From Brachybacterium kimchii (GTDB lineage: Bacteria > Actinomycetota > Actinomycetes > Actinomycetales > Dermabacteraceae): 64,000 bases of DNA. The DNA is taken from NCBI RefSeq assembly GCF_023373525.1, contig NZ_CP097218.1, forward strand, positions 1,240,001 through 1,304,000, written 5' to 3'. Every line of letters starts with the position of its first letter. The stretch's first letter is position 1. Positions 54,372 to 63,129 of the stretch are shown one piece after another. The position numbers and the translations under genes are program-made. Below the pieces are notes generated by a model. That model was not told the origin of the DNA and ran no database searches. It was given only the letters and a program-made list of their open reading frames with translations.

Positions 54372-55214
54372 TCAGGGGCGGCGCTCGGCGGCGAGACTGC
54401 CGAGGATCGCGAGCTTCTCGTCGGCCTCGGTGCCGGGCTCGGCGCTGTAGGTGACGAGCCGATGCGTTGAGTCGCCGGGCGTTTCCAGCACCTCGAAGGC
54501 CAGGTCGAGACGACCGACGTCCGGATGGACGAACCGCTTCGTGCCGGTGCGGTGCTCGTGCACGTCGAGCCGGGCCCAGTCCTCGCGGAACAGCGGGCTG
54601 AGCGTCGTCAGCTCCCCGATGAACTCGGTCAGACCCTTGTCCCGCGGGTCCCTGCCCGCTTCCCGGCGCAGGATCGCCGCCCCTGTGCGCCGCGCCAGCG
54701 GCCAGTCGACGTAGAAGTCCCGGGCGCGCGGGTCGAGGTAGTTGAACCGCGCGAAGTTCGGCTCCTGCGCCTCGAAGACGGGCGAGAACAGTGCACGGGC
54801 CAGGTCGTTGGCCGCGACCAGGTCAAGACGCGGTGTCTGGACGATCGCCGGGACGCCCATGCTCTCGACGAGGCGGCGCAGGGACGCCCGGACCTCGGCG
54901 GTCCCGTGCACTTCGGACCGCGACGGGGACGTCGAGGCCTGCCGTGCGAGGTCGAGAAGATGCTCGCGCTCGATGTTCGTGAGGCGAAGGGCCCTCGCGA
55001 CCGCGTCGAGGACGCTCTCCGATGCGCCGCCGAGCTCGCCGCGCTCGAGCCGCTTGTAATACCCGACACTGACGCCGGCCAGCTCTGCGACCTCCTCGCG
55101 CCGCAGCCCTGGGACCCGCCGCTCGTCTCCGTGGTCGTGCACGCCGGCTTCGGCGGGCGTGATCTGGGCGCGGCGGGAGACTAGGAACGCTCGCGCTTCG
55201 TCCTTCGAGGTCAT
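54372..55214 (-). CDS. MmyB-type XRE transcriptional regulator (first copy)
   Basis: Encodes 280 residues. The N-terminal XRE helix-turn-helix (about residues 25-85) reads RRVPGLRREEVAELAGVSVGYYKRLERG. The C-terminal ligand-binding domain (about 105-265) has PRLDLVAANDLARALFSP and the MmyB-like FYVDWPLARRTGAAILRREAG and RFVHPDVGRLDLAFEVLETPGD. The family often sits beside SDR or aldo/keto reductase genes and represses them. It is 45% or so similar by eye to the second copy at 56739. ATG chosen at MTSKDEARAFL; the upstream dyad CCTGACAGG ends 40 bases before it. Confidence 0.9.
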   Translation of the reverse strand: MTSKDEARAFLVSRRAQITPAEAGVHDHGDERRVPGLRREEVAELAGVSVGYYKRLERGELGGASESVLDAVARALRLTNIEREHLLDLARQASTSPSRSEVHGTAEVRASLRRLVESMGVPAIVQTPRLDLVAANDLARALFSPVFEAQEPNFARFNYLDPRARDFYVDWPLARRTGAAILRREAGRDPRDKGLTEFIGELTTLSPLFREDWARLDVHEHRTGTKRFVHPDVGRLDLAFEVLETPGDSTHRLVTYSAEPGTEADEKLAILGSLAAERRP

Positions 55215-55253
55215 GCCACAACGGTAAGCGGGCGTCAGCGCCCTGCGGGAGTC

Positions 55254-55262
55254 CCTGTCAGG
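55254..55262. promoter_or_regulatory. CCTGACAGG dyad, site 1
   Basis: On the gene strand CCTGACAGG, within a 22-base block (55251-55272) that matches site 2 (57703-57724) in 20 positions. It ends 40 bases before the first MmyB-type regulator gene and includes the stop of the aldo/keto reductase remnant. Confidence 0.55.
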
Positions 55263-55356
55263 TGCACCCGGCATCGAACCCTGTCGGGTCGGTCATCGGG
55301 CCGAACCTCGTCGCCGGGATCTCGACGCCGTTGTTCAGCGTGAAGTGGTCGGTCAT
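55258..55356 (-). pseudogene. Aldo/keto reductase N-terminal remnant
   Basis: A 32-codon reading frame beginning MTDHFTLNNGVEIPATRFG, closely like the start of the intact reductase at 58969 (MQSITLNNGVEMPQLGLG), then stopping soon after. A GAGGAGGGA ribosome-binding site is still present. No catalytic residue remains. It stands between the MDR gene and the first MmyB-type regulator, and indicates that a third reductase once stood here. Confidence 0.75.
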
Positions 55357-55390
55357 GGAGCGTCTCGTCCCTCCTCGACGCGTGCGTGGG

Positions 55391-56353
55391 TCAGAGCTGG
55401 GGCGTGGTGAGCAGGACGACCTTGCCGGTGCTGTGACCTGACTCCACGGCCCGGTGGGCATCGGCGACGTCGGCGAGCGCGAACGTCTCGGAGACCGTCG
55501 GCACCAGCTCGCCGTCGGCGGCCAGGCGGACGACGCCTTCGAGCCACTCGCGCTGGGTGTGGACGTGGGTGGCGGCGAACCGGACGCCGGCGCGCTCCGC
55601 GTCCGCCTCGAGGTCCCCGGCTCCCCCGCCGAGAGCGACGAGCGTCCCTCCGGGGCGCACGGCCCGCAGCGCCGCCTCGCGTGAGCCGGCGGCGAGGCTC
55701 AGCGCGACATCCACGCTTCCCGCCAGGGCCCCGACGGCCTCGGGATCGCGGTAGTCGACCGTCTCGTCCGCGCCGAGACCTCGCAGCCAGTCGTGCTTGC
55801 CCTCGCTGGCGATCGCGACGACGTGCGCGCCGAGGAGGTGGGCGATCTGGACGGCGAGGTGGCCGACCCCTCCACCGGCCCCGGTGATGAGCACGCGCTG
55901 CCCGGGCCCGACCGAGGTCGTGTCGGCGAAGGCCTGCCAGGCCGTCATCGCCGCCATCGGCAGCGCCCCGGCCTGCTCATCGGTCAGGCTCTCCGGCGTC
56001 AGAGCGAGGTCATCGGCGGGGACGACCGCGTGCTCGGCGTACGCGCTGCCTTCGCGCGGGAACCGGGCCAGCCCGAGAACACGCTGGCAGACCTCGAGGC
56101 CGGTGACGTCAGCGCCGACTGCCTCGACGGTGCCGGCGACGTCCCAGCCGGGGGTGAACGGCAGCGTGACGACCCCGGCCGCCGCCATGCCTCCGCCCTC
56201 GCGGGTCATGACGTCGATCGTGTTGACGCCCGCCGCGGTGACGGCGACGAGAACGTCGCCCGGGCCGAGATCGGCGGCGGTCGGTGCTGGCGCATCGATG
56301 ATCTCGAGGACCTCGGGGCCTCCGAAGGCGTGCTGGAGAATCTTTGTGCTCAT
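55391..56353 (-). CDS. NADP-dependent quinone-oxidoreductase-like MDR protein
   Basis: Encodes 320 residues. It is a zinc-free medium-chain dehydrogenase of the quinone oxidoreductase type: N-terminal GroES-like domain with VAVTAAGVNTIDVMTREGG and GWDVAGTVEAVG, and Rossmann domain VLITGAGGGVGHLAVQIA, then VALGGGAGDLEA. No catalytic zinc Cys/His set. Such enzymes reduce quinones or enones. It is downstream of the second MmyB-type regulator and of the truncated F420-type reductase, whose stop overlaps its ATG by 4 bases. Confidence 0.88.
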   Translation of the reverse strand: MSTKILQHAFGGPEVLEIIDAPAPTAADLGPGDVLVAVTAAGVNTIDVMTREGGGMAAAGVVTLPFTPGWDVAGTVEAVGADVTGLEVCQRVLGLARFPREGSAYAEHAVVPADDLALTPESLTDEQAGALPMAAMTAWQAFADTTSVGPGQRVLITGAGGGVGHLAVQIAHLLGAHVVAIASEGKHDWLRGLGADETVDYRDPEAVGALAGSVDVALSLAAGSREAALRAVRPGGTLVALGGGAGDLEADAERAGVRFAATHVHTQREWLEGVVRLAADGELVPTVSETFALADVADAHRAVESGHSTGKVVLLTTPQL

Positions 56354-56740
56354 GCTTCTGCTCCTGCTCGGTGAATGACGGCGATGTTGAACTCGAAGGT
56401 GCCCAACGCCCCGAACAGGGCGAAGGACAGGCCGGCGTACATCTCGGCCCCGCGTGCGGCGGTGATGCTGCCGAGGTCGATGATCTCCGCCGCGGGCCAG
56501 CCGGAGGCTTCCAGCAGGCCCCGGACCGTGGCCTTGGCGTCAGTGTCGTCGCCGGCGACGAAGATGCTGTGGGGTCCGGGCAGACGGGATGGTTCCACCA
56601 TCAGGTCGGCCAGGACGGTGCTGAGGGACGTGACGACGCGGGCGTCGGGGAATGCGCGCTGGATCCGCTCGCCGAGGCTGTCGGTGTCCGCCACCGTCAG
56701 GGCGGGCGGCATGCCCTGCGAGGGGTCGAGGGAGAGGGTC
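56350..56740 (-). pseudogene. Truncated F420/NADPH oxidoreductase-like gene (C-terminal half)
   Basis: This frame carries LSLDPSQGMPPALTVADTDS and onward to the C-terminus, closely matching residues from LDLSQGMPP onward of the intact gene at 58207. The first half, including the Rossmann nucleotide-binding motif, is missing, and the homology begins where the second MmyB-type gene ends (56739). An internal ATG could express a 120-residue fragment, but without cofactor-binding residues. It sits between that regulator and the MDR gene. Confidence 0.8.
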
Positions 56741-57656
56741 AGCCGTGGTGCGCGCTCCCCTGCTCCTGCTCGCGCGAGTCGGGGCCGGCCTCCGCGCGGC
56801 CCTGCTCCTCCTGCTGCGTCCGCGCCCAGGCTCCCAGCAGCTCGAGCGCGTCCGCGCTGGGACTGTCCGGGGCCGCTGTGTACGTCGTCATGGAGATCGT
56901 GGGATCCCCCGGCAGCGCGAGGTCGGTGTAGACGAGTTCGAGCGTCCCCACACCGGGGTGGTGGAAGGTCTTGCGGCCCTGGGTGTGGCGGTGCACGTTG
57001 TGCTTGCCCCACCGGGCCGAGAAGTCCTGGCTGCGGGCGGCGAGCTCGCCGATCAGGTTGCTGAGCTCGGTGTCCAGCGGGTCCCGTCCCGCCGCGGCGC
57101 GCAGCAAGGAGACGGTGAAGTTCTTCGCCCCCTCGAAGTCGGCGTAGAAGTCGGCGGCCCGGGAGTCCAGGAACGCGAAGCGGGCGAAGTTCGCCTGACC
57201 AGCCATGCTGAACGGCCCCGGGTAGAGCGCGCGGCCGAGGTCATTGGCAGCGACCAGGTCCATCCGCGTGTTCATCACCACCGCGGGCACGCTCATCGAG
57301 TCGAGCACCTGCTGCACCGCATCGGTGACCGCCGGTTCCCGCCCGGGCCTCTCCCGCGTCCGGGACGGCGCTCCGACGCTGCGGGCCAAGTCGTGGAGAT
57401 GCGCTCGCTCGTCGTCGTCGAGCTGCAGCACCCACACGAGCGCCTCGAGCACGCTCTCCGACGCGCCGCCGAGGGCGCCGCGCTCCATCCGCGTGTAGTA
57501 CTCGACGCTCACGCCCGCGAGCATCGCGACCTCCTCGCGACGCAGCCCCGGAACGCGCCGGTCGCCGCCCCCGGCGTAGGGCAGCCCGGCCATCTGCGGC
57601 GTGACCCGGGCGCGTCGGCTCATCAGGAAGTCCCTGACCTCTCGCTTGATCTCCAT
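56739..57656 (-). CDS. MmyB-type XRE transcriptional regulator (second copy)
   Basis: Encodes 305 residues. The N-terminal helix-turn-helix (RRVPGLRREEVAMLAGVSVEYYTRMERG, in parts about residues 33-85) is nearly the same as in the first copy. The C-terminal MmyB domain has TRMDLVAANDLGRALYPGP, FYADFEGAKNFTVSLLRAAAGRDP and TFHHPGVGTLELVYTDLALPGDP. Its stop abuts the truncated F420-type reductase, which might have removed original downstream sequence. It diverges from DUF2255 with a 141-base spacer containing the CCTGACAGG dyad 49 bases before its ATG. Confidence 0.9.
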   Translation of the reverse strand: MEIKREVRDFLMSRRARVTPQMAGLPYAGGGDRRVPGLRREEVAMLAGVSVEYYTRMERGALGGASESVLEALVWVLQLDDDERAHLHDLARSVGAPSRTRERPGREPAVTDAVQQVLDSMSVPAVVMNTRMDLVAANDLGRALYPGPFSMAGQANFARFAFLDSRAADFYADFEGAKNFTVSLLRAAAGRDPLDTELSNLIGELAARSQDFSARWGKHNVHRHTQGRKTFHHPGVGTLELVYTDLALPGDPTISMTTYTAAPDSPSADALELLGAWARTQQEEQGRAEAGPDSREQEQGSAHHG

Positions 57657-57705
57657 GCGTTCCAGGCTACGGCCGCTGTTCCGCCCCTGGGGGTCCCCGA
57701 CAGTG

Positions 57706-57714
57706 CCTGTCAGG
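57706..57714. promoter_or_regulatory. CCTGACAGG dyad, site 2
   Basis: Lies in the divergent spacer between the second MmyB-type regulator and DUF2255. The neighbouring GACAG-TGC-CTGTC (57699-57711) adds a second overlapping dyad. Confidence 0.55.
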
Positions 57715-57797
57715 CGCACCCGGCCCGTCCCACGATGGATGAGGACGACGCGGCGCAGCATGCGCGCGAGGCGTCGCAATCGACGAAGGAGGACCCC

Positions 57798-58172
57798 ATG
57801 CCCGCATGGCCGACGGACGTCATCGAGAAGATCGCATCCACCGACGACCTGCACATCTATCCCTTCCGTGAGGACGGGAGGACCTACGGCACCCCGACGT
57901 GGATCTGGTCGGTGGTCGTCGAGGGACGGCTGTTCGTCCGTGCCTACCACGGCACCGACGGCCGCTGGCACCGCTCGGCGATCGCCCAGCGCGCCGGCCG
58001 CATCGACGCCGCGGGCGCCACCCACGACGTCGCCTTCGCCCCCGCCGACCCCGCCCTCGACGACCGGATCGACCAGGCCTACGAGGAGAAGTACGCCGGC
58101 AGCCCGTACCTCCCGCCCATGGTCTCCTCCCGCGCCCGCGCCGCCACGGTCGACGTCGCGCCCGCAGTCTGA
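57798..58172 (+). CDS. DUF2255 family protein
   Basis: Encodes 124 residues after AAGGAGGA. The DUF2255 pattern is visible: TDDLHIYPFREDGRTYGTPTWIWSVVVEGRLFVRAY, HGTDGRWHRSAIAQRAGRI and YEEKYAGSPYLPPMVSSRAR (in parts). This is the flavin-dependent-like split-barrel type, resembling deazaflavin-dependent nitroreductase relatives. It probably binds F420 or flavin (inference). It is the first gene of the plus-strand redox run and divergent from the second MmyB-type regulator. Confidence 0.85.
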   Translation: MPAWPTDVIEKIASTDDLHIYPFREDGRTYGTPTWIWSVVVEGRLFVRAYHGTDGRWHRSAIAQRAGRIDAAGATHDVAFAPADPALDDRIDQAYEEKYAGSPYLPPMVSSRARAATVDVAPAV

Positions 58173-58206
58173 ACCACCCCACGAAGAACGGAATGAGTAT
58201 CCACCC

Positions 58207-58896
58207 ATGAAGATCGCAGTCATCGGCACCGGCGGCGTCGGCCGCACCCTCGCCGCGGCCCTCGCCACCCTCGGCCACGAGGTCGCCGTCGGCACCCGCA
58301 GCGTCGAGAACACGCTCGCCCGCACCGAGCCGGACGTGTTCGGCAATCCGCCCTACTCCCAGTGGCAGCAGGAGCACACCGACATCCAGCTGCTCCCGTT
58401 CGCCGAGGCCGGCGCATTCGGCGAGATCGTCCTCAACGCGACCAACGGCGCGAATTCCCTCACGGCCCTCGAGGCCGTCGGCGCGGAGAATCTGGACGGC
58501 AAGGTCCTGCTGGACGTCGCGCTGCCCCTGGACCTGTCGCAGGGCATGCCGCCCACGCTGACAGTGGCGAACACCGACAGCCTCGCCGAGCAGATCCAGC
58601 GCACCTACCCCGAGGCGAAGGTCGTCAAGTCCCTGAACTCGGTCGCCTTCCCCGTCATGGTGGATCCGTCCCGGGTGCCGGGCGAGCACAGCGTCTTCGT
58701 CGCCGGGGACCACGAGGACGCGAAGGCCGCCGTGCGCAGCCTGCTCGAGGGTTTCGGCTGGCCCACCGGCGCGATCATCGATCTCGGCGGCATCACCGGT
58801 GCCCGAGGCGCGGAGATGTACTCGCGTCTCTACTTCACCCTCGCCGGAGTCCTGGACACCTTCGACTTCAACATCAAGGTCGTCCGCGGGGCGTGA
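58207..58896 (+). CDS. F420/NADPH oxidoreductase-like reductase
   Basis: Encodes 229 residues. The N-terminal Rossmann motif is MKIAVIGTGGVGRTLAAALATLGHEVAVGTRS. LDVALPLDLSQGMPPTLTVANTDS, VKSLNSVAFPVMVDPSRVPG and FVAGDHEDAKAAVRSLLEGFGW follow the NADP oxidoreductase coenzyme F420-dependent pattern. It may reduce F420 with NADPH or be a simpler NADPH reductase; both are possible. It lies 34 bases after the DUF2255 gene, which suits a partner role in deazaflavin chemistry (inference). Intact, in contrast to its remnant at 56350. Confidence 0.88.
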   Translation: MKIAVIGTGGVGRTLAAALATLGHEVAVGTRSVENTLARTEPDVFGNPPYSQWQQEHTDIQLLPFAEAGAFGEIVLNATNGANSLTALEAVGAENLDGKVLLDVALPLDLSQGMPPTLTVANTDSLAEQIQRTYPEAKVVKSLNSVAFPVMVDPSRVPGEHSVFVAGDHEDAKAAVRSLLEGFGWPTGAIIDLGGITGARGAEMYSRLYFTLAGVLDTFDFNIKVVRGA

Positions 58897-58968
58897 ACCG
58901 CGCACTGGGAGCAGCACGGCCGTGCCCTCCCCTCCCGACCCCATGACGAGACAGAGAGCAGGAAGCAG

Positions 58969-59811
58969 ATGCAGTCCATCACCCTGAACAACGGCGTCGA
59001 GATGCCCCAGCTCGGCCTCGGCGTCTTCCAGATGAACGACGAGCAGGTCCTCGAGACCGTGCCGAAGGCCCTCGATGCCGGCTACCGGCTCATCGACACC
59101 GCCTCCCGCTACTACAACGAGGAAGCCGTTGGCCGCGCGATCGCAGAATCGGGGGTGCCGCGCGAGGAGCTGTTCGTGACCACCAAGCTGTGGTTCAAGG
59201 ACCACGGCTACCAGCAGACCAAGGACGCCCTCCGGGTCTCCCTGGACGAGCTGGGCCTCGACCGCCTCGATCTGTGGCTGATCCACCAGCCCTTCGGCGA
59301 CTACTACGGCGCATGGCGGGCGATGGAGGACCTCCTCGACGAGGGCCTCGTCCGCGCGATCGGCGTGTCCAACTTCTATCCCGACCGCTACGCCGACCTC
59401 GTCGCCCACAACCGGATCGTTCCGGCGGTCGACCAGCGCGAGACGCACGTGTTCAACCAGCAGAAGGACATGCTCGACCTCGCCCGCCGGCATGGCACCG
59501 TGCTCCAGGCGTGGGCGCCTCTCGTCCAGGGAGACCCTGAGGCGCACGGCGACCCGGCCCTGGCGGAGATCGCCGCGGCGCATGGCAGGACGGTCGCGCA
59601 GGTGATGCTGCGCTGGCTGATCCAGCGCGACATCGCCGTGGTCGCCAAGTCGACGCATGAGGATCGGCTGCGGGAGAACCTCGACGTCTTCGACTTCTCG
59701 CTCAGCGGCGACGAGATGGAACGCATCGCCGACCTCGATCGTCAGCAGCCGATCGCCGGCTTCACCCACCGTGACCCGCGGATGCTCGAGATGCTCCGCG
59801 GACTCGAATGA
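58969..59811 (+). CDS. Aldo/keto reductase (first)
   Basis: Encodes 280 residues, normal for the family. It has the tetrad Asp43, Tyr48, Lys73 and His106 (LIHQP), then GVSNFYPDRYADLVAHNRIVPAVDQ and AKSTHEDRLRENLDVFDFSLS, which binds the NADPH phosphate (family knowledge). It reduces carbonyls such as 2-oxoaldehydes with NADPH. Start MQSITLNNGVEMP closely resembles the remnant at 55258. It follows the F420-type reductase with a 72-base gap. Confidence 0.95.
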   Translation: MQSITLNNGVEMPQLGLGVFQMNDEQVLETVPKALDAGYRLIDTASRYYNEEAVGRAIAESGVPREELFVTTKLWFKDHGYQQTKDALRVSLDELGLDRLDLWLIHQPFGDYYGAWRAMEDLLDEGLVRAIGVSNFYPDRYADLVAHNRIVPAVDQRETHVFNQQKDMLDLARRHGTVLQAWAPLVQGDPEAHGDPALAEIAAAHGRTVAQVMLRWLIQRDIAVVAKSTHEDRLRENLDVFDFSLSGDEMERIADLDRQQPIAGFTHRDPRMLEMLRGLE

Positions 59812-59836
59812 GCACAACTGCGAAGGAGACACCCTC

Positions 59837-60730
59837 ATGACCACCGTTCCATCCGTGACCACGAACAACGGCGTGACGATGCCCGCTCTTGGCTTCGGCG
59901 TCTTCCAGTCCCCGCCGGAGGAGACGGCGACGGCGGTCGAGACCGCCCTGGCCACCGGATACCGGCACATCGACACCGCCGCCGCCTACGGCAACGAGCG
60001 CGAGGTCGGCGAGGGCATCCGCCGCTCCGGACTCGGCCGGGACGAGGTCTTCGTCGAGACCAAGGTCTGGGCCACCGACTACGGCTACGAGGCGACCCGG
60101 CATGCGTTCGACAAGGCCGCCGGCAAGCTCGGCGTCGAGATGATCGATCTGCTGATCCTTCACCAGCCCGTCCCGCTGCGCTTCGAGCGCACGATCGACG
60201 CCTACAAGGGCCTGGAATCGCTCCTGGCGGAAGGCAGGGTGCGCGCGATCGGGGTCAGTAACTTCATGCCCGAGCACCTGGAGCGGCTCCTCGCCGCCGC
60301 CGACGTGGTGCCCGCGGTCAACCAGATCGAGATCCACCCCTACTTCCGGCAGACCGCCGCCCAGCAGGCGAACCAGGAGCACGGAATCGTGTCGCAGGCG
60401 TGGTCGCCGATCGGCGGGATCACCTTCTACCCCGGCTTCGGGGACGATCGCAGGAGCACCCTGGACGACACGACGATCCAGGAGATCGCGCGCTCGCACG
60501 GCAAGACTCCGGCGCAGACGATGCTGCGCTGGCACCTGGACCAGGGCCGGTCCGCGATCCCGAAGTCCACCGACCCCGGACGCATCGCGGAGAACTTCGA
60601 CGTCTTCGACTTCGAGCTCACCACGGTCGAGCTCGACGCCATCGATGCACTCGACACCGGCCATCGCGGCGGACCCGACCCGGAGACCTTGGACCCCGAT
60701 GAGTCGCCGATGGTGATCCCCGAGGCATGA
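59837..60730 (+). CDS. Aldo/keto reductase (second)
   Basis: Encodes 297 residues after GAAGGAGAC. The tetrad is Asp46, Tyr51, Lys76 and His109 (LHQP). GVSNFMPEHLERLLAAADVVPAVNQIE and IPKSTDPGRIAENFDVFDFEL are standard. It is only moderately similar to the first reductase and has an insert near GITFYPGFGDDRRSTLDD, so the pair is likely specialised rather than a recent tandem duplication. Its stop overlaps the MFS gene start by 4 bases. Confidence 0.94.
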   Translation: MTTVPSVTTNNGVTMPALGFGVFQSPPEETATAVETALATGYRHIDTAAAYGNEREVGEGIRRSGLGRDEVFVETKVWATDYGYEATRHAFDKAAGKLGVEMIDLLILHQPVPLRFERTIDAYKGLESLLAEGRVRAIGVSNFMPEHLERLLAAADVVPAVNQIEIHPYFRQTAAQQANQEHGIVSQAWSPIGGITFYPGFGDDRRSTLDDTTIQEIARSHGKTPAQTMLRWHLDQGRSAIPKSTDPGRIAENFDVFDFELTTVELDAIDALDTGHRGGPDPETLDPDESPMVIPEA

Positions 60731-61971
60731 GGGCCGCTGTGGAGCATCGCTCGGCCGGACCACGACCGGCTGCGGGGACACGCAGACCGCTCGTCGTAGC
60801 GGTCGTGCTCGGCCTGCTGGCCGTGTTCGGACCGTTCTCGATGAACCTGTACCTCCCGGTGCTTCCGGGGCTCACCCACGACCTGGAGACGACGACGGCG
60901 CTGGCCCAGCTGACGATCACGGGCTGCCTGATCGGCCTGGCCGCTGGTCAGCTCGTCGCCGGTCCCCTGTCGGATCGGTACGGACGTCGGTTGCCTTTGC
61001 TGGTCGGCGTCGTCGCCTACGTGGTGACGTCGCTCCTGTGCGCGGCCGCCCCATCGATCGAGGTGCTGCTGGTCGGCCGACTGCTGCAGGGCGTGGCCGC
61101 GTCCACCGGCGTGGTCATCGCCCTGGCGGCCGGCCGCGACGTCTACTCGGGCGACCGGCTGGTCGCCTACTACGGACGGTTCACCGTCCTGTCGGGCCTC
61201 GCAGGCGCGATCAGCCCGGTCTTCGGCGGGCTGCTCGCCCTGTTCACCGACTGGCGCGGTACCTTTCTCGCCCTGACGATCCTCGGCGCGGTCGTTCTGC
61301 TGGCCGTGGTGCTCGGCCTGCCCGAGACGCTGCGACCGGAGCGGAGGAGACTCGGAGGAGGCAGGGACGTCTCGGTGCTCGGTCTGCTGGCAGATCGCAG
61401 GTTCCTCGGCATCGTGCTCGTGATGGGCCTCGTCAACGGAGGGCTCTTCGCCTACCTGTCCGGATCGACGTTCATCCTCCAATCCACGTACGGCGTCGGC
61501 CCGCAGGCCTACTCGGTGCTGATCGGGATCATCTCCGGCGTCTACATGCTCTTCGGCTGGCTGGCCGGCCGGGTCGGCACGATCTGGTCCACCGGGAGGT
61601 CGCTCCTGCTCAGCGTGGTCGTCGGCCTGGCCGGGTCTGCTGGTGTCCTCGCCACGGCCCTGCTCCACCTGCCGCTCGCGGCGATGATGGCCGCGCTGCT
61701 GGTGATGGTGTCCGGTATCGCCGCGGCCACGACGGCGGCCACCTCCCTGGGCATGGCGGCCAACCCGGATGCCGCCGGGTCCGCGTCCTCGCTGCTCGGC
61801 CTCGCCCGGTACGCCTTCGGCGCTGCTGCCGCCCCGGTCGTCGGCCTCTTCGGCGACGCCCGCATCGGCACCACCCTCGGGGTGCTCAGCATCGCGGTCA
61901 TGACGGCGTCCTTGGCAGCCCTCTCCCTCGTCCGCACGCGGGATGCGCCGCCGGCTCGGGAGGCACGCTGA
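60727..61971 (+). CDS. MFS multidrug efflux transporter (Bcr/CflA family)
   Basis: Encodes 414 residues with 12 predicted membrane segments. Motif A GPLSDRYGRRLPLL lies in loop 2-3. MNLYLPVLPGLTHDLETT in helix 1, GRLLQGVAAS in helix 4 and ALFTDWRGTFLAL belong to the Bcr/CflA drug/H+ antiporters. It exports drugs or toxic organic products. The start overlaps AKR2 by 4 bases, so export is coupled to carbonyl reduction. This implies handling of a reactive carbonyl or quinone compound (inference). Confidence 0.92.
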   Translation: MRAAVEHRSAGPRPAAGTRRPLVVAVVLGLLAVFGPFSMNLYLPVLPGLTHDLETTTALAQLTITGCLIGLAAGQLVAGPLSDRYGRRLPLLVGVVAYVVTSLLCAAAPSIEVLLVGRLLQGVAASTGVVIALAAGRDVYSGDRLVAYYGRFTVLSGLAGAISPVFGGLLALFTDWRGTFLALTILGAVVLLAVVLGLPETLRPERRRLGGGRDVSVLGLLADRRFLGIVLVMGLVNGGLFAYLSGSTFILQSTYGVGPQAYSVLIGIISGVYMLFGWLAGRVGTIWSTGRSLLLSVVVGLAGSAGVLATALLHLPLAAMMAALLVMVSGIAAATTAATSLGMAANPDAAGSASSLLGLARYAFGAAAAPVVGLFGDARIGTTLGVLSIAVMTASLAALSLVRTRDAPPAREAR

Positions 61972-62026
61972 GATCGCGGCGGACGAGCAGGCGACGATCC
62001 GACGAGCGCGACTCCGGGACGGGGGC

Positions 62027-62035
62027 CCTGACAGG
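62027..62035. promoter_or_regulatory. CCTGACAGG dyad, site 3
   Basis: CCTGACAGGGACTCCC (62027-62042) is identical over 16 bases to the gene-strand sequence at site 1 (55247-55262, reversed). It is 71 bases before the alcohol dehydrogenase start and has the same orientation to its downstream gene as sites 1 and 2. Confidence 0.55.
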
Positions 62036-62106
62036 GACTCCCATCCCGGTCCCGGAGGTGGTGTCGTAGACGGGTCGAATGATCGAGAACCTGAGGAGTC
62101 AAGCTC

Positions 62107-63129
62107 ATGCGCGCAGTCGTCATGCACGCCCCCGGAGACGTCCGCACCGATGAGGTCGCCAAGGCCGCCGTCGTCGAACCCACCGACGCGGTCATCCGCG
62201 TCACCGCCGCCTGCATCTGCGGCTCCGACCTGTGGCCCTACCGCGGCATCGAGAACGTGGACCGGCCCTCCCCGATGGGCCACGAGTACATCGGCGTCGT
62301 CGAGGAGATCGGGGACGAGGTGAAGGACATCGCGGTCGGCGACCTCGTCGTCGGCTCGTTCGTCGCCTCCGACAACACCTGCGAGATCTGCCAGGCGGGC
62401 TTCCAGTCCCGCTGCGTCCACCAGGTCATGATGGGCGCGATCGGCACCCAGGCCGACTATGCCCGCATCCCGCTGGCCGACGGCACCCTGGTGAAGGTCC
62501 CCGGCACACCGACGGCGGCCCAGACGAAGAGCCTGCTGGCCGCCTCCGACGTCCTCGGCACCGGCTGGTTCGCCGCCGTGGCCGCCGAGGCCGGCCCCGG
62601 CAAGACCGTCGCCGTCGTCGGCGACGGAGCCGTCGGCCTCCTCGGCATCCTCGCTGCCAAGCGCCTCGGCGCGGAGCGGATCATCGCGATGTCCCGCCAC
62701 ACCGACCGCCAGGACCTCGCCACGCAATTCGGCGCGACCGACATCGTCGAGGAGCGCGGCGAGGAGGGAATCGCCAGGATCAAGGAGCTCACGGGCGGCT
62801 ACGGAGCGCACTCCACCATCGAGGCCGTCGGCACCCAGGAGTCCATGGCGCAGGCCATCGGCGCGACCCGCCCCGGCGGCCACGTCGGCTACGTCGGCGT
62901 CTCCCACGGCGTCGAGCTCCAGGGACAGGACCTGTTCTTCGCCACCGTGAGCCTGCTCGGCGGCCCCGCTCCGGTGCGACGGTTCCTGCCCGAGCTGATC
63001 GACCTGATCATGACCGACCAGATCGACCCCGGCGTCGTCTTCGACCTCGAGCTGCCCATCGAACGGGCTGCCGAGGGCTACAAGGCGATGGACGAGCGCC
63101 GCGCCACCAAGGTTCTGCTCACTCTCTGA
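62107..63129 (+). CDS. Zinc-dependent alcohol dehydrogenase
   Basis: Encodes 340 residues. It is a medium-chain dehydrogenase with catalytic zinc ligands Cys38 (CICGSD) and His59-Glu60 (GHEYIG), and a structural-zinc lobe NTCEICQAGFQSRC with three Cys where four are usual. The Rossmann motif VAVVGDGAVGLLGILAAKRLGAE and TIEAVGTQESMAQAIGATRPGG follow. It oxidises or reduces alcohols or aldehydes with NAD(P). No stop overlap with the MFS gene; a 135-base spacer holds its own CCTGACAGG site, so it may be separately controlled. Confidence 0.92.
   Translation: MRAVVMHAPGDVRTDEVAKAAVVEPTDAVIRVTAACICGSDLWPYRGIENVDRPSPMGHEYIGVVEEIGDEVKDIAVGDLVVGSFVASDNTCEICQAGFQSRCVHQVMMGAIGTQADYARIPLADGTLVKVPGTPTAAQTKSLLAASDVLGTGWFAAVAAEAGPGKTVAVVGDGAVGLLGILAAKRLGAERIIAMSRHTDRQDLATQFGATDIVEERGEEGIARIKELTGGYGAHSTIEAVGTQESMAQAIGATRPGGHVGYVGVSHGVELQGQDLFFATVSLLGGPAPVRRFLPELIDLIMTDQIDPGVVFDLELPIERAAEGYKAMDERRATKVLLTL

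Follow-up and report, generated by a model that had tools for sequence, protein, structure and literature searches.

Regulators of the MltR/MmyB family (PF17765), to which the Caur_2278 structure (3pxp) belongs, share a helix-turn-helix and a PAS-like domain with reg1 and reg2, the two regulators of the locus analysed here (PMC3406030, available parts). According to the same parts of that report, MmyB-like regulators are numerous in actinomycetes and adjoin oxidoreductase and antibiotic genes; among the 16 MltR/MmyB paralogues of S. coelicolor, 15 are divergent from a putative target, often an SDR/MDR or antibiotic-related gene. A site of two-fold symmetry was predicted for the family, and MmyB, a named family member, was described as an activator. 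The 'B-boxes' of MmyB are mentioned there without sequence, and the operator sequence is absent from the parts covered. No operator sequence for any MmyB-like regulator was found in the literature searched.

Autoregulation through a palindrome upstream of the own gene, the same logic as proposed here, is described in the available parts of a survey of XRE palindromic motifs (PMC12565409). Its main text, as far as available, names MltR once, as an example of a dimer, and the present motif may be among its 223 motif clusters. MsrR of Corynebacterium glutamicum, an XRE regulator, uses a single intergenic site to control both its own gene and a divergent MFS gene and is described as a thiol-based repressor (PMC7532634, available parts). 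Rv0023 of M. tuberculosis was set aside as another XRE protein with an AT-rich site (PMC7020754, available parts).

Within the window, the whole 64-kb stretch of DNA that was analysed, the locus contains the following features.

54372..55214, minus strand: reg1, MltR/MmyB-like regulator (HTH_31 + MLTR_LBD; PF17765 E 4.7e-52, PF13560 E 1.2e-8)
55221..55226, minus strand: TACCGT, putative reg1 -10 hexamer, 6 nt upstream of the ATG, CAG-to-hexamer distance 31
55247..55269, minus strand: candidate operator 1, GGGTGCACCTGACAGGGACTCCC, axis 55258, at -44 of reg1, from comparison of orthologous promoters
55267..55356, minus strand: N-terminal aldo/keto reductase remnant, matching AKR1 at 44% across 34 aa (E 0.002)
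55391..56353, minus strand: zinc-binding dehydrogenase (Pfam ADH_N, ADH_zinc_N, ADH_zinc_N_2), perhaps quinone-oxidoreductase-like
56374..56742, minus strand: C-terminal fragment of an F420-type oxidoreductase paralogue, with 64% identity across 123 aa when aligned with residues 104-226 of the 58207 gene product and with no match of its own in a Pfam search
56739..57656, minus strand: reg2, MltR/MmyB-like regulator (PF17765 E 2.1e-51, PF13560 E 5.7e-10)
57664..57669, minus strand: TAGCCT, putative reg2 -10 hexamer, 7 nt upstream of the ATG, 30 from the operator 2a arm
57689..57711, plus strand: candidate operator 2a, dyad axis 57700, at -44 of reg2, on the plus strand facing the DUF2255 operon
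57699..57721, minus strand: candidate operator 2b (site 2 below), axis 57710, at -54 of reg2, 10 bp from 2a
57731..57736, plus strand: CACGAT, possibly a weak -10 for the DUF2255 operon, assigned by eye, 30 nt past the operator 2a CAG
57798..58172, plus strand: DUF2255 protein, gene 1 of the divergent operon (PF10012 E 3.3e-38)
58207..58896, plus strand: F420-type NADP oxidoreductase (PF03807 E 5.4e-8)
58969..59811, plus strand: aldo/keto reductase AKR1 (PF00248 E 2.1e-53)
59837..60730, plus strand: aldo/keto reductase AKR2 (PF00248 E 6.1e-46)
60727..61971, plus strand: MFS transporter (PF07690 E 6.6e-40)
62020..62042, plus strand: candidate operator 3, upstream of ADH, axis 62031, arm and spacing similar in ADH orthologues
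62062..62067, plus strand: putative -10 hexamer TGTCGT of ADH, 30 nt past the operator 3 CAG
62107..63129, plus strand: zinc-dependent alcohol dehydrogenase ADH (PF00107 E 1.3e-22, PF08240 E 2.6e-20)

Both regulators are MltR/MmyB-like by domain content, with MLTR_LBD at 176.9 (reg1) and 174.7 bits (reg2) against a cut-off of 26.3 and HTH_31 above its cut-off; a single-sequence search of the PDB gave only weak helix-turn-helix matches (E 0.003-0.008) and none across the ligand domain. The divergent-neighbour arrangement is present at reg2, which faces the DUF2255 operon, and absent at reg1, where the genes upstream run in the same direction. Among 80 members of the clade, 27-28 carry a window-type oxidoreductase (ADH, AKR2) or DUF2255 relative divergently within 1.4 kb; in 22 members the divergent ADH, AKR2 or DUF2255 relative is no more than 350 nt away.

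A sequence-only reading of this DNA had reported one symmetric core at three sites, and this was confirmed as CCTGTCAGG at 55254-55262 (site 1) and 57706-57714 (site 2) and CCTGACAGG at 62027-62035 (site 3), with no further exact CCTGWCAGG in the 64-kb window by exact string count. The identities given there, 20 of 22 bases between sites 1 and 2 and 16 consecutive bases between sites 1 and 3, were reproduced, as was the common orientation, the side CAGGSACT... facing the gene each time when read towards it. Gaps measured to the start codons at 55214 (reg1), 57656 (reg2) and 62107 (ADH) are 39, 49 and 71, in agreement with the claimed 40-71 bases. The arms of the dyad are CAGGGACTCCC and GGTGCACC.

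The 9-mer alone is marginal by shuffling (0.61 copies expected in the window; at least three copies in 2 of 100 shuffles), and remnants of an AKR and an F420 reductase lie in the locus, both of which would suit three copies that arose by chance or as a side effect of recent duplication where the locus has been rearranged. The 23-bp cores, however, are pairwise identical at 19, 19 and 16 of 23 bases (19/23 for operator 2b and operator 1), while their 45-base flanks agree at 7-18 of 45; since the cores are alike and the unrelated flanks are not, more than a simple recent duplication of a longer stretch is indicated. With the places recovered by a matrix from other species and the sites retained in orthologues, as described below, such an origin is highly improbable.

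Upstream of homologous regulators, the motif GgGTACcGnCAGggCCTCCC was found in 61 of 70 non-redundant cases, mostly at one fixed place (call above 8 bits, with the matrix fitted on the same 70 promoters), and at the same 8-bit threshold in 0/70 control stretches from -400 to -290. These 70 were left from 76 clade promoters after removal of near-identical ones. In the 82 homologue rows used, the alignment begins no later than residue 10 of the query; matches that were truncated, split or at a contig edge (e.g. L084, G331:C474) were discarded together with the weakest rows, and 33 of 37 non-genus rows were used, L193, L194, L207 and L209 lying too near contig ends. In other families of the order, the motif was present at 32 of 33 loci from 11 families, with ten of the eleven represented, and homologues from other orders, outside the fitting, carried it in four of six cases at 24-29 bits. 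It was absent before nine of the 70 homologues and two of the six from other orders. The motif model scored 494 against 62-70 in five shuffles; a refit on the -400..-290 stretches still scored 294, which probably stems from coding sequence common to related genes. Symmetry scoring gave a positive value at one axis only, which coincides with the middle of the originally described dyad.

When the matrix was built without the own genome and two reg1 orthologues, operator 3 ranked first in the window (18.5 bits, 62023-62043) and the reg2 intergenic region (operator 2a) second (14.5 bits, 57692-57712), both strands being ranked. Operator 1 fits the matrix only if one extra spacer base is allowed, a step taken after the site had been seen; all three locations then rank first to third. 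Operator 2b was not among the top matrix matches listed; the better-placed dyad at reg2 lies 10 bp from it and also faces the DUF2255 operon. The proposal that the dyad is a candidate operator for MmyB-type regulators is thus supported by the cross-species comparison: a matching site at the same promoter distance before related genes in many species makes docking sites the most likely interpretation, and the three dyads are very probably operators of MltR/MmyB-type regulators of the clade of reg1 and reg2.

The exact 9-mer did not hold up as the conserved unit. At that place the sequence is CCCACCAGG and CCTCGCAGG in the two nearest reg1 orthologues; TGA within the 9-mer is not conserved, the conserved parts being CAGGGnCTCCC and GGTRYACC. 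CCTGWCAGG occurs genome-wide in 10 copies against 27 of the reversed control, and a profile from nine family members detected no regulator homologue in the 3-kb loci of the 7 copies outside the window. The longer CCTGACAGGSACT has 3 copies in the own genome, all in the window (reversed controls, 0), and was found at 15 places in 295 other genomes of the class; none of these 15 has a regulator homologue in its 3-kb locus by the nine-member profile, indicating that the exact string is too narrow. In the own genome the half-site CAGGGNCTCCC does not rise above background, with 35 copies and 49 of the reversed control. This frequency, the change of the strict 9-mer in orthologues and the lack of such regulators beside the longer string elsewhere count against the operator reading, as do the homologues without the motif, the refit score and the matrix results for operators 1 and 2b.

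A search of 47 family genomes for CCNNNCAGGGACTCCC, disregarding genes, gave 21 places, of which 15 scored below 10 bits and were rejected because they look like chance. The six scoring at least 10 bits are the own sites 1 and 3, two reg1 orthologues and two other oxidoreductase promoters, those of an aldo/keto reductase (12.5 bits) and of a RibD_C protein (20.7 bits, with TACGGT at +30). Both of these extra promoters lie away from any close reg1 relative. This would suit a motif that is a general element of promoters, or one bound by some different regulator with MltR genes among its targets; the very regular position beside the -10 would fit the same explanation. Against it, reg1 and ADH alone, among 30 of the 35 own-genome CAGGGNCTCCC half-sites, combine at least 11 bits with T[AG]NNNT at 28-32 (the 11-bit cut being chosen post hoc and the matrix including the own sites), members of other MltR clades pass 8 bits in only 5 of 41 cases, and the motif tracks the genes of this clade across families. 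We consider this explanation improbable. With operators of the reg1/reg2 clade as the preferred reading, targets can be predicted from sequence through a motif whose promoter geometry is fixed; the two extra oxidoreductase promoters are an example.

The site before ADH was explained by comparison of orthologues. Each of the eight full-length ADH orthologues (70-72%) has an MltR gene as its divergent neighbour, and the motif lies in between (in one of them, L162, the script picked another arm), and a T....T hexamer at +30 is present in 7 of the 8; a ninth relative at 72% (G012, residues 55-340 only), located beside an MltR C-terminal fragment, was excluded from the eight. Close full-length orthologues thus have a divergent promoter region, motif included, in common with such a regulator. 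The ADH of the window would stand apart from its usual divergent regulator, with the site kept.

The distance from the motif CAG to TANNNT was 29-31 nt in 60 of 69 promoters (redundancy left in), 41 in seven and 45 in two, with no other value. The jump of 10-12 nt occurs among orthologues sharing the ADH neighbour, which speaks for helix-face dependence. The dyad axis is located near -43/-44 of the predicted start, with no conserved -35 between the site and the -10. A second, outward-facing arm 16 nt away gave a mean of 5.6 of 11 matches, against 2.3-4.3 at other spacings. A three-half-site switch was dropped because the central GTAC is not symmetric between the two axes. At the level of sequence comparison, motif, axis, fixed spacing and the link of regulator and oxidoreductase are established across species.

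We propose that reg1 and reg2, each an XRE helix-turn-helix with a PAS-like ligand domain, bind the dyad of about 23 bp as dimers around -43/-44 of a leaderless promoter, immediately before the -35 position and partly over it, and that each would control its own gene plus oxidoreductase units. Transcription of reg1 and reg2 would start at the ATG, the shared reg2 region would control the DUF2255-F420 reductase-AKR-AKR-MFS unit, and the switch may be a small compound, lipophilic or carbonyl, bound in the PAS-like domain. A dimer of lambda CI activates its own promoter PRM from about -42 by touching sigma; class II activators of this kind combine a dyad near -42 with a fixed helical phase to the -10 and a weak -35. 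The likeness of this autoactivating helix-turn-helix dimer to the dyad here is one of geometry only, lambda CI differing from MltR in ligand domain and operator. The geometry suggests activation via sigma contact rather than repression, and, given that the dyad is an operator, we lean somewhat towards activation.

The operators could also be real and the regulators repressors, the dimer covering the -35 and blocking RNA polymerase until ligand release, with autorepression and oxidoreductase induction as the outcome. By its spacing the right arm would extend to the -35 position, and this overlap suits a repressor equally; XRE regulators commonly autoregulate via an upstream palindrome (PMC12565409, available parts), and MsrR represses itself and the divergent MFS gene (PMC7532634, available parts). 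A repressor roadblock, however, does not require a spacing that is constant save for shifts by roughly one helical turn, the information string gives no conserved -35 element between site and -10, and MmyB is described as an activator in the available parts of PMC3406030. Repression is a plausible mode, to which we give rather less than an even chance. The fixed geometry makes the question of activation directly testable.

It is conceivable, though doubtful, that the whole MltR/MmyB family follows one architecture, in which a subfamily-specific operator with its dyad at -43 and a lambda-CI-like sigma contact would switch the own gene and a divergent oxidoreductase. Of 31 non-redundant members from the other clades within the genus, only 5 have TANNNT at the leaderless place, or 11 if a looser hexamer is accepted, and only some have a clear dyad at the 43-nt axis; both observations speak against a family-wide architecture. 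Most of these members are without the motif of the studied clade. In favour of the idea, odd palindromes in these members are strongest about an axis exactly 43 nt ahead of the start, which is also the axis of the studied clade (an exploratory result, with an uncorrected single-axis p of 0.0009).

Some smaller features of the locus were also observed. The 3' end of the aldo/keto reductase remnant at 55267..55356 extends into operator 1. Two further points had been missed by the sequence-only reading: site 2 is also upstream of the divergent DUF2255 operon, and a one-mismatch copy, CCCGACAGG, is located 26 bp farther from reg1 than site 1.

Judged by their sequence and gene context, three copies of the dyad CCTGWCAGG are very probably operators, still candidate ones, of the MltR/MmyB-type regulators reg1 and reg2. 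The sequence-only reading had placed them at 55254-55262 (site 1), 57706-57714 (site 2) and 62027-62035 (site 3, before the zinc-dependent alcohol dehydrogenase gene, ADH); these positions are exact, and no fourth copy is present in the 64-kb window. The 9-mer by itself is marginal, with 0.61 copies expected in the window by chance and at least three found in 2 of 100 shuffles, and the weight of the case rests on the likeness beyond it. The 23-base cores share 19 bases between sites 1 and 2, 19 between sites 1 and 3 and 16 between sites 2 and 3, and the 45-base flanks are identical at 7 to 18 positions. A one-mismatch copy, CCCGACAGG, lies at 55280-55288 (minus strand), 26 bp beyond site 1 as counted from reg1. 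In the genome-wide scan (4.35 Mb), proposed as a check, the total of 10 copies was below that of the reversed control (27); 3 of the 10 fall inside the 6.8 kb spanned by the three sites. No MltR-type regulator was found in the 3-kb loci of the seven copies outside the window.

Regulator genes and the gene remnants between them
54372-55214, minus strand: reg1, HTH_31 plus MLTR_LBD, MmyB-like family
55267-55356: remnant of an aldo/keto reductase N-terminus, between reg1 and reg2
56374-56742: remnant of an F420 reductase C-terminus, between reg1 and reg2
56739-57656, minus strand: reg2, HTH_31 plus MLTR_LBD, MmyB-like family

The MmyB-like family has seven matches in this genome. Divergent from reg2 are the genes for DUF2255, an F420-type oxidoreductase, two aldo/keto reductases and an MFS transporter, and ADH stands after this run with a dyad of its own (site 3). 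The interval between reg2 and reg1 holds a zinc-binding dehydrogenase gene together with an F420 reductase paralogue and an aldo/keto reductase that survive as remnants, indicating that the locus has been rearranged; the two remnants may stem from a decayed second copy of the divergent operon. A third clade member (L218; 56% to reg1) lies just beyond the right end of the window, about 90 nt after a same-strand aldo/keto reductase-like gene and near part of a second MFS gene that resembles the one at 60727.

Promoters of reg1 homologues were taken from 38 genomes of the genus (82 rows used, 41 of these at 46% identity or above, plus reg1 and reg2 themselves) and those of reg2 homologues from 79 genomes of the order (33 used). 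Motif search with 43 genus sequences and then with 70 non-redundant ones, all of the clade that includes reg1 and reg2, yielded GgGTACcGnCAGggCCTCCC. In this form the motif stands before the orthologous regulators, where the sequence-only reading had proposed to look for it, exceeding 8 bits in 61 and 12 bits in 53 of the same 70 promoters to which it was fitted, versus 0 of 70 above 8 bits in control stretches 290-400 nt upstream. The model score was 494, against 62-70 in five mononucleotide shuffles; refitting on the far-upstream stretches still gave 294, so kinship of the sequences inflates these scores. Among six homologues from other orders, outside the fitting, four scored 24-29 bits and two below zero. 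As for the nine motif-less promoters, two sit 26-35 nt after a same-strand aldo/keto reductase gene and three others seem, by eye, to come after a gene end; these may have no operator of their own. In other MltR clades 36 of 41 promoters scored 8 bits or less.

The self-complementarity score of the motif was positive at one axis only, the n of GnCAG (7.7; next axis −2.6), which is the centre of the 9-mer, and the symmetry axis proposed earlier is therefore right. The reg1 orthologues at 72-73% carry GGGGTACC-CAC-CAGGGACTCCC and GGTGCACC-TCG-CAGGGACTCCC, and reg1 itself GGTGCACC-TGA-CAGGGACTCCC; the arms are kept but the central TGA is not, so the conserved unit is the two arms about the axis, with the perfect 9-mer dyad as one local form of it. 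A putative −10 hexamer, TANNNT, ends 5-8 nt ahead of the start codon in 69 of 70 clade promoters, and within a six-position window at that place it occurs in 60 of 61 motif-bearing promoters versus 0 of 305 control windows. Because it lies so near the start codon, the transcripts are predicted to be leaderless. The distance to the hexamer, counted from the C of the CAG arm, is 29-31 nt in 60 of 69 promoters, 41 in seven and 45 in two, with no other values; inspected by eye, outside the scripted count, both 45-nt promoters also hold a stretch at 30 that resembles an arm. Regulators divergent from an ADH orthologue include 41-nt cases (e.g. L076, L079, L099) and 29-31-nt cases (L018, L085, L096), so that orthologues differ in this spacing by about one helical turn.

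Both strands of the window were scanned with a matrix of 55 sites, from which this genome and the two reg1 orthologues were excluded, the site positions having been placed earlier by the full matrix. Site 3 ranked first (62023-62043, 18.5 bits). The second match, 57692-57712 (plus strand, 14.5 bits), overlaps site 2 and faces the DUF2255 operon; its axis, 57700, is 10 bp off the 57710 of the sequence-only reading. Axis 57700 corresponds to −44 of reg2, the usual place, and 57710 to −54; either or both may be in use. Site 1 was absent from the top 15 of this ungapped scan of the window; with one extra spacer base permitted, at a 2-bit penalty set once site 1 had been seen, all three took ranks 1-3.

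Eight full-length ADH relatives at 70-72% in the genus are all, by their coordinates, divergent from an MltR gene, and all eight shared regions contain a site of 13.5-25.3 bits facing that gene. Towards ADH, seven of the eight regions have an arm such as CAGGGACTCCC and, exactly 30 nt beyond it, a T....T hexamer (TGGAAT, TGTGAT etc.); the ADH of the window has TGTCGT, likewise at 30, and has kept site 3 with no regulator adjoining. Within 1.4 kb on the divergent strand, 19 of 80 clade members have a relative of ADH, 5 one of AKR2 (an aldo/keto reductase of the DUF2255 operon) and 3 one of DUF2255; in 22 of the 27 cases it lies no more than 350 nt away.

A search blind to genes, made in 47 family genomes, gave 21 occurrences of CCNNNCAGGGACTCCC; six of these reach at least 10 bits: sites 1 and 3, two reg1 orthologues, and the loci L144 and L145, where no reg1 or ADH relative was found within 1.5 kb. 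The L144 site (12.5 bits) precedes an aldo/keto reductase gene and lacks T[AG]NNNT at 29-31. The L145 site (genome G019, minus strand; 20.7 bits), before the gene for a RibD_C protein, has TACGGT at 30 and a start codon 7 nt on, and is the strongest pattern-found operator candidate outside this genome, in a related species and with a leaderless-type promoter. The reductase-type genes behind both sites would fit a regulon controlled in trans. On the other side of L145 is a gene resembling, by eye, a universal stress protein. The half-site CAGGGNCTCCC was at background in this genome (35 versus 49 reversed); among 30 such loci examined, only reg1 and ADH have both a score of at least 11 bits, by a matrix including their own sites, and a correctly spaced hexamer.

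A regulator bound to a dyad near −43, with one arm reaching −35, may activate as a class II activator. Lambda CI at PRM is a class II activator of such geometry, and the clade promoters would resemble it in the dyad near −43, the arm to −35, the lack of a conserved −35 element and the helical phase kept. The main rival is repression, in which the regulator sits over the −35 region. MmyB is described as an activator (PMC3406030), and this description together with the dyad geometry favours activation, whose chance, given the operator reading, we put at slightly better than even.

In PMC3406030 SDR/MDR genes are reported as divergent neighbours and the site is predicted to be symmetric, and the sections consulted contain no operator sequence; PMC12565409 is a large-scale study in which palindromes were found upstream of XRE genes. 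A search by title or abstract opening, mainly of openly accessible literature, found no publication on this operator. An exploratory look at other MltR clades of the genus (31 non-redundant genes) again put the best odd palindrome axis 43 nt ahead of the start (mean 0.38 paired versus 0.29, single-axis p 0.0009), though TANNNT is at the leaderless place in only 5 of the 31. A conserved CACTACTAGTGGTGGAACTGATAGTTTTC, a different dyad, precedes the regulator in another MltR clade (L015, L091, L092, L131) and is perhaps the own operator of that clade. A further clade (L107, L110, L113, L114, L115, L118, L121) has a conserved dyad of the ATCCGGGGAGAG-CCGTCCCTGGAT type closely before the start. Before an MltR gene of this genome (L011), a perfect 17-base inverted repeat, GGGGGCACCGGCAGGGT...ACCCTGCCGGTGCCCCC, ends one base ahead of a TAGTCT hexamer. 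Two contigs of genome G024 (C1 and C2; 3.14 and 1.73 Mb) carry four equal-scoring MltR genes 3-8 kb from both ends in mirrored orientation, an arrangement suggestive of linear replicons that share terminal inverted repeats, or else of a repeat produced in assembly.
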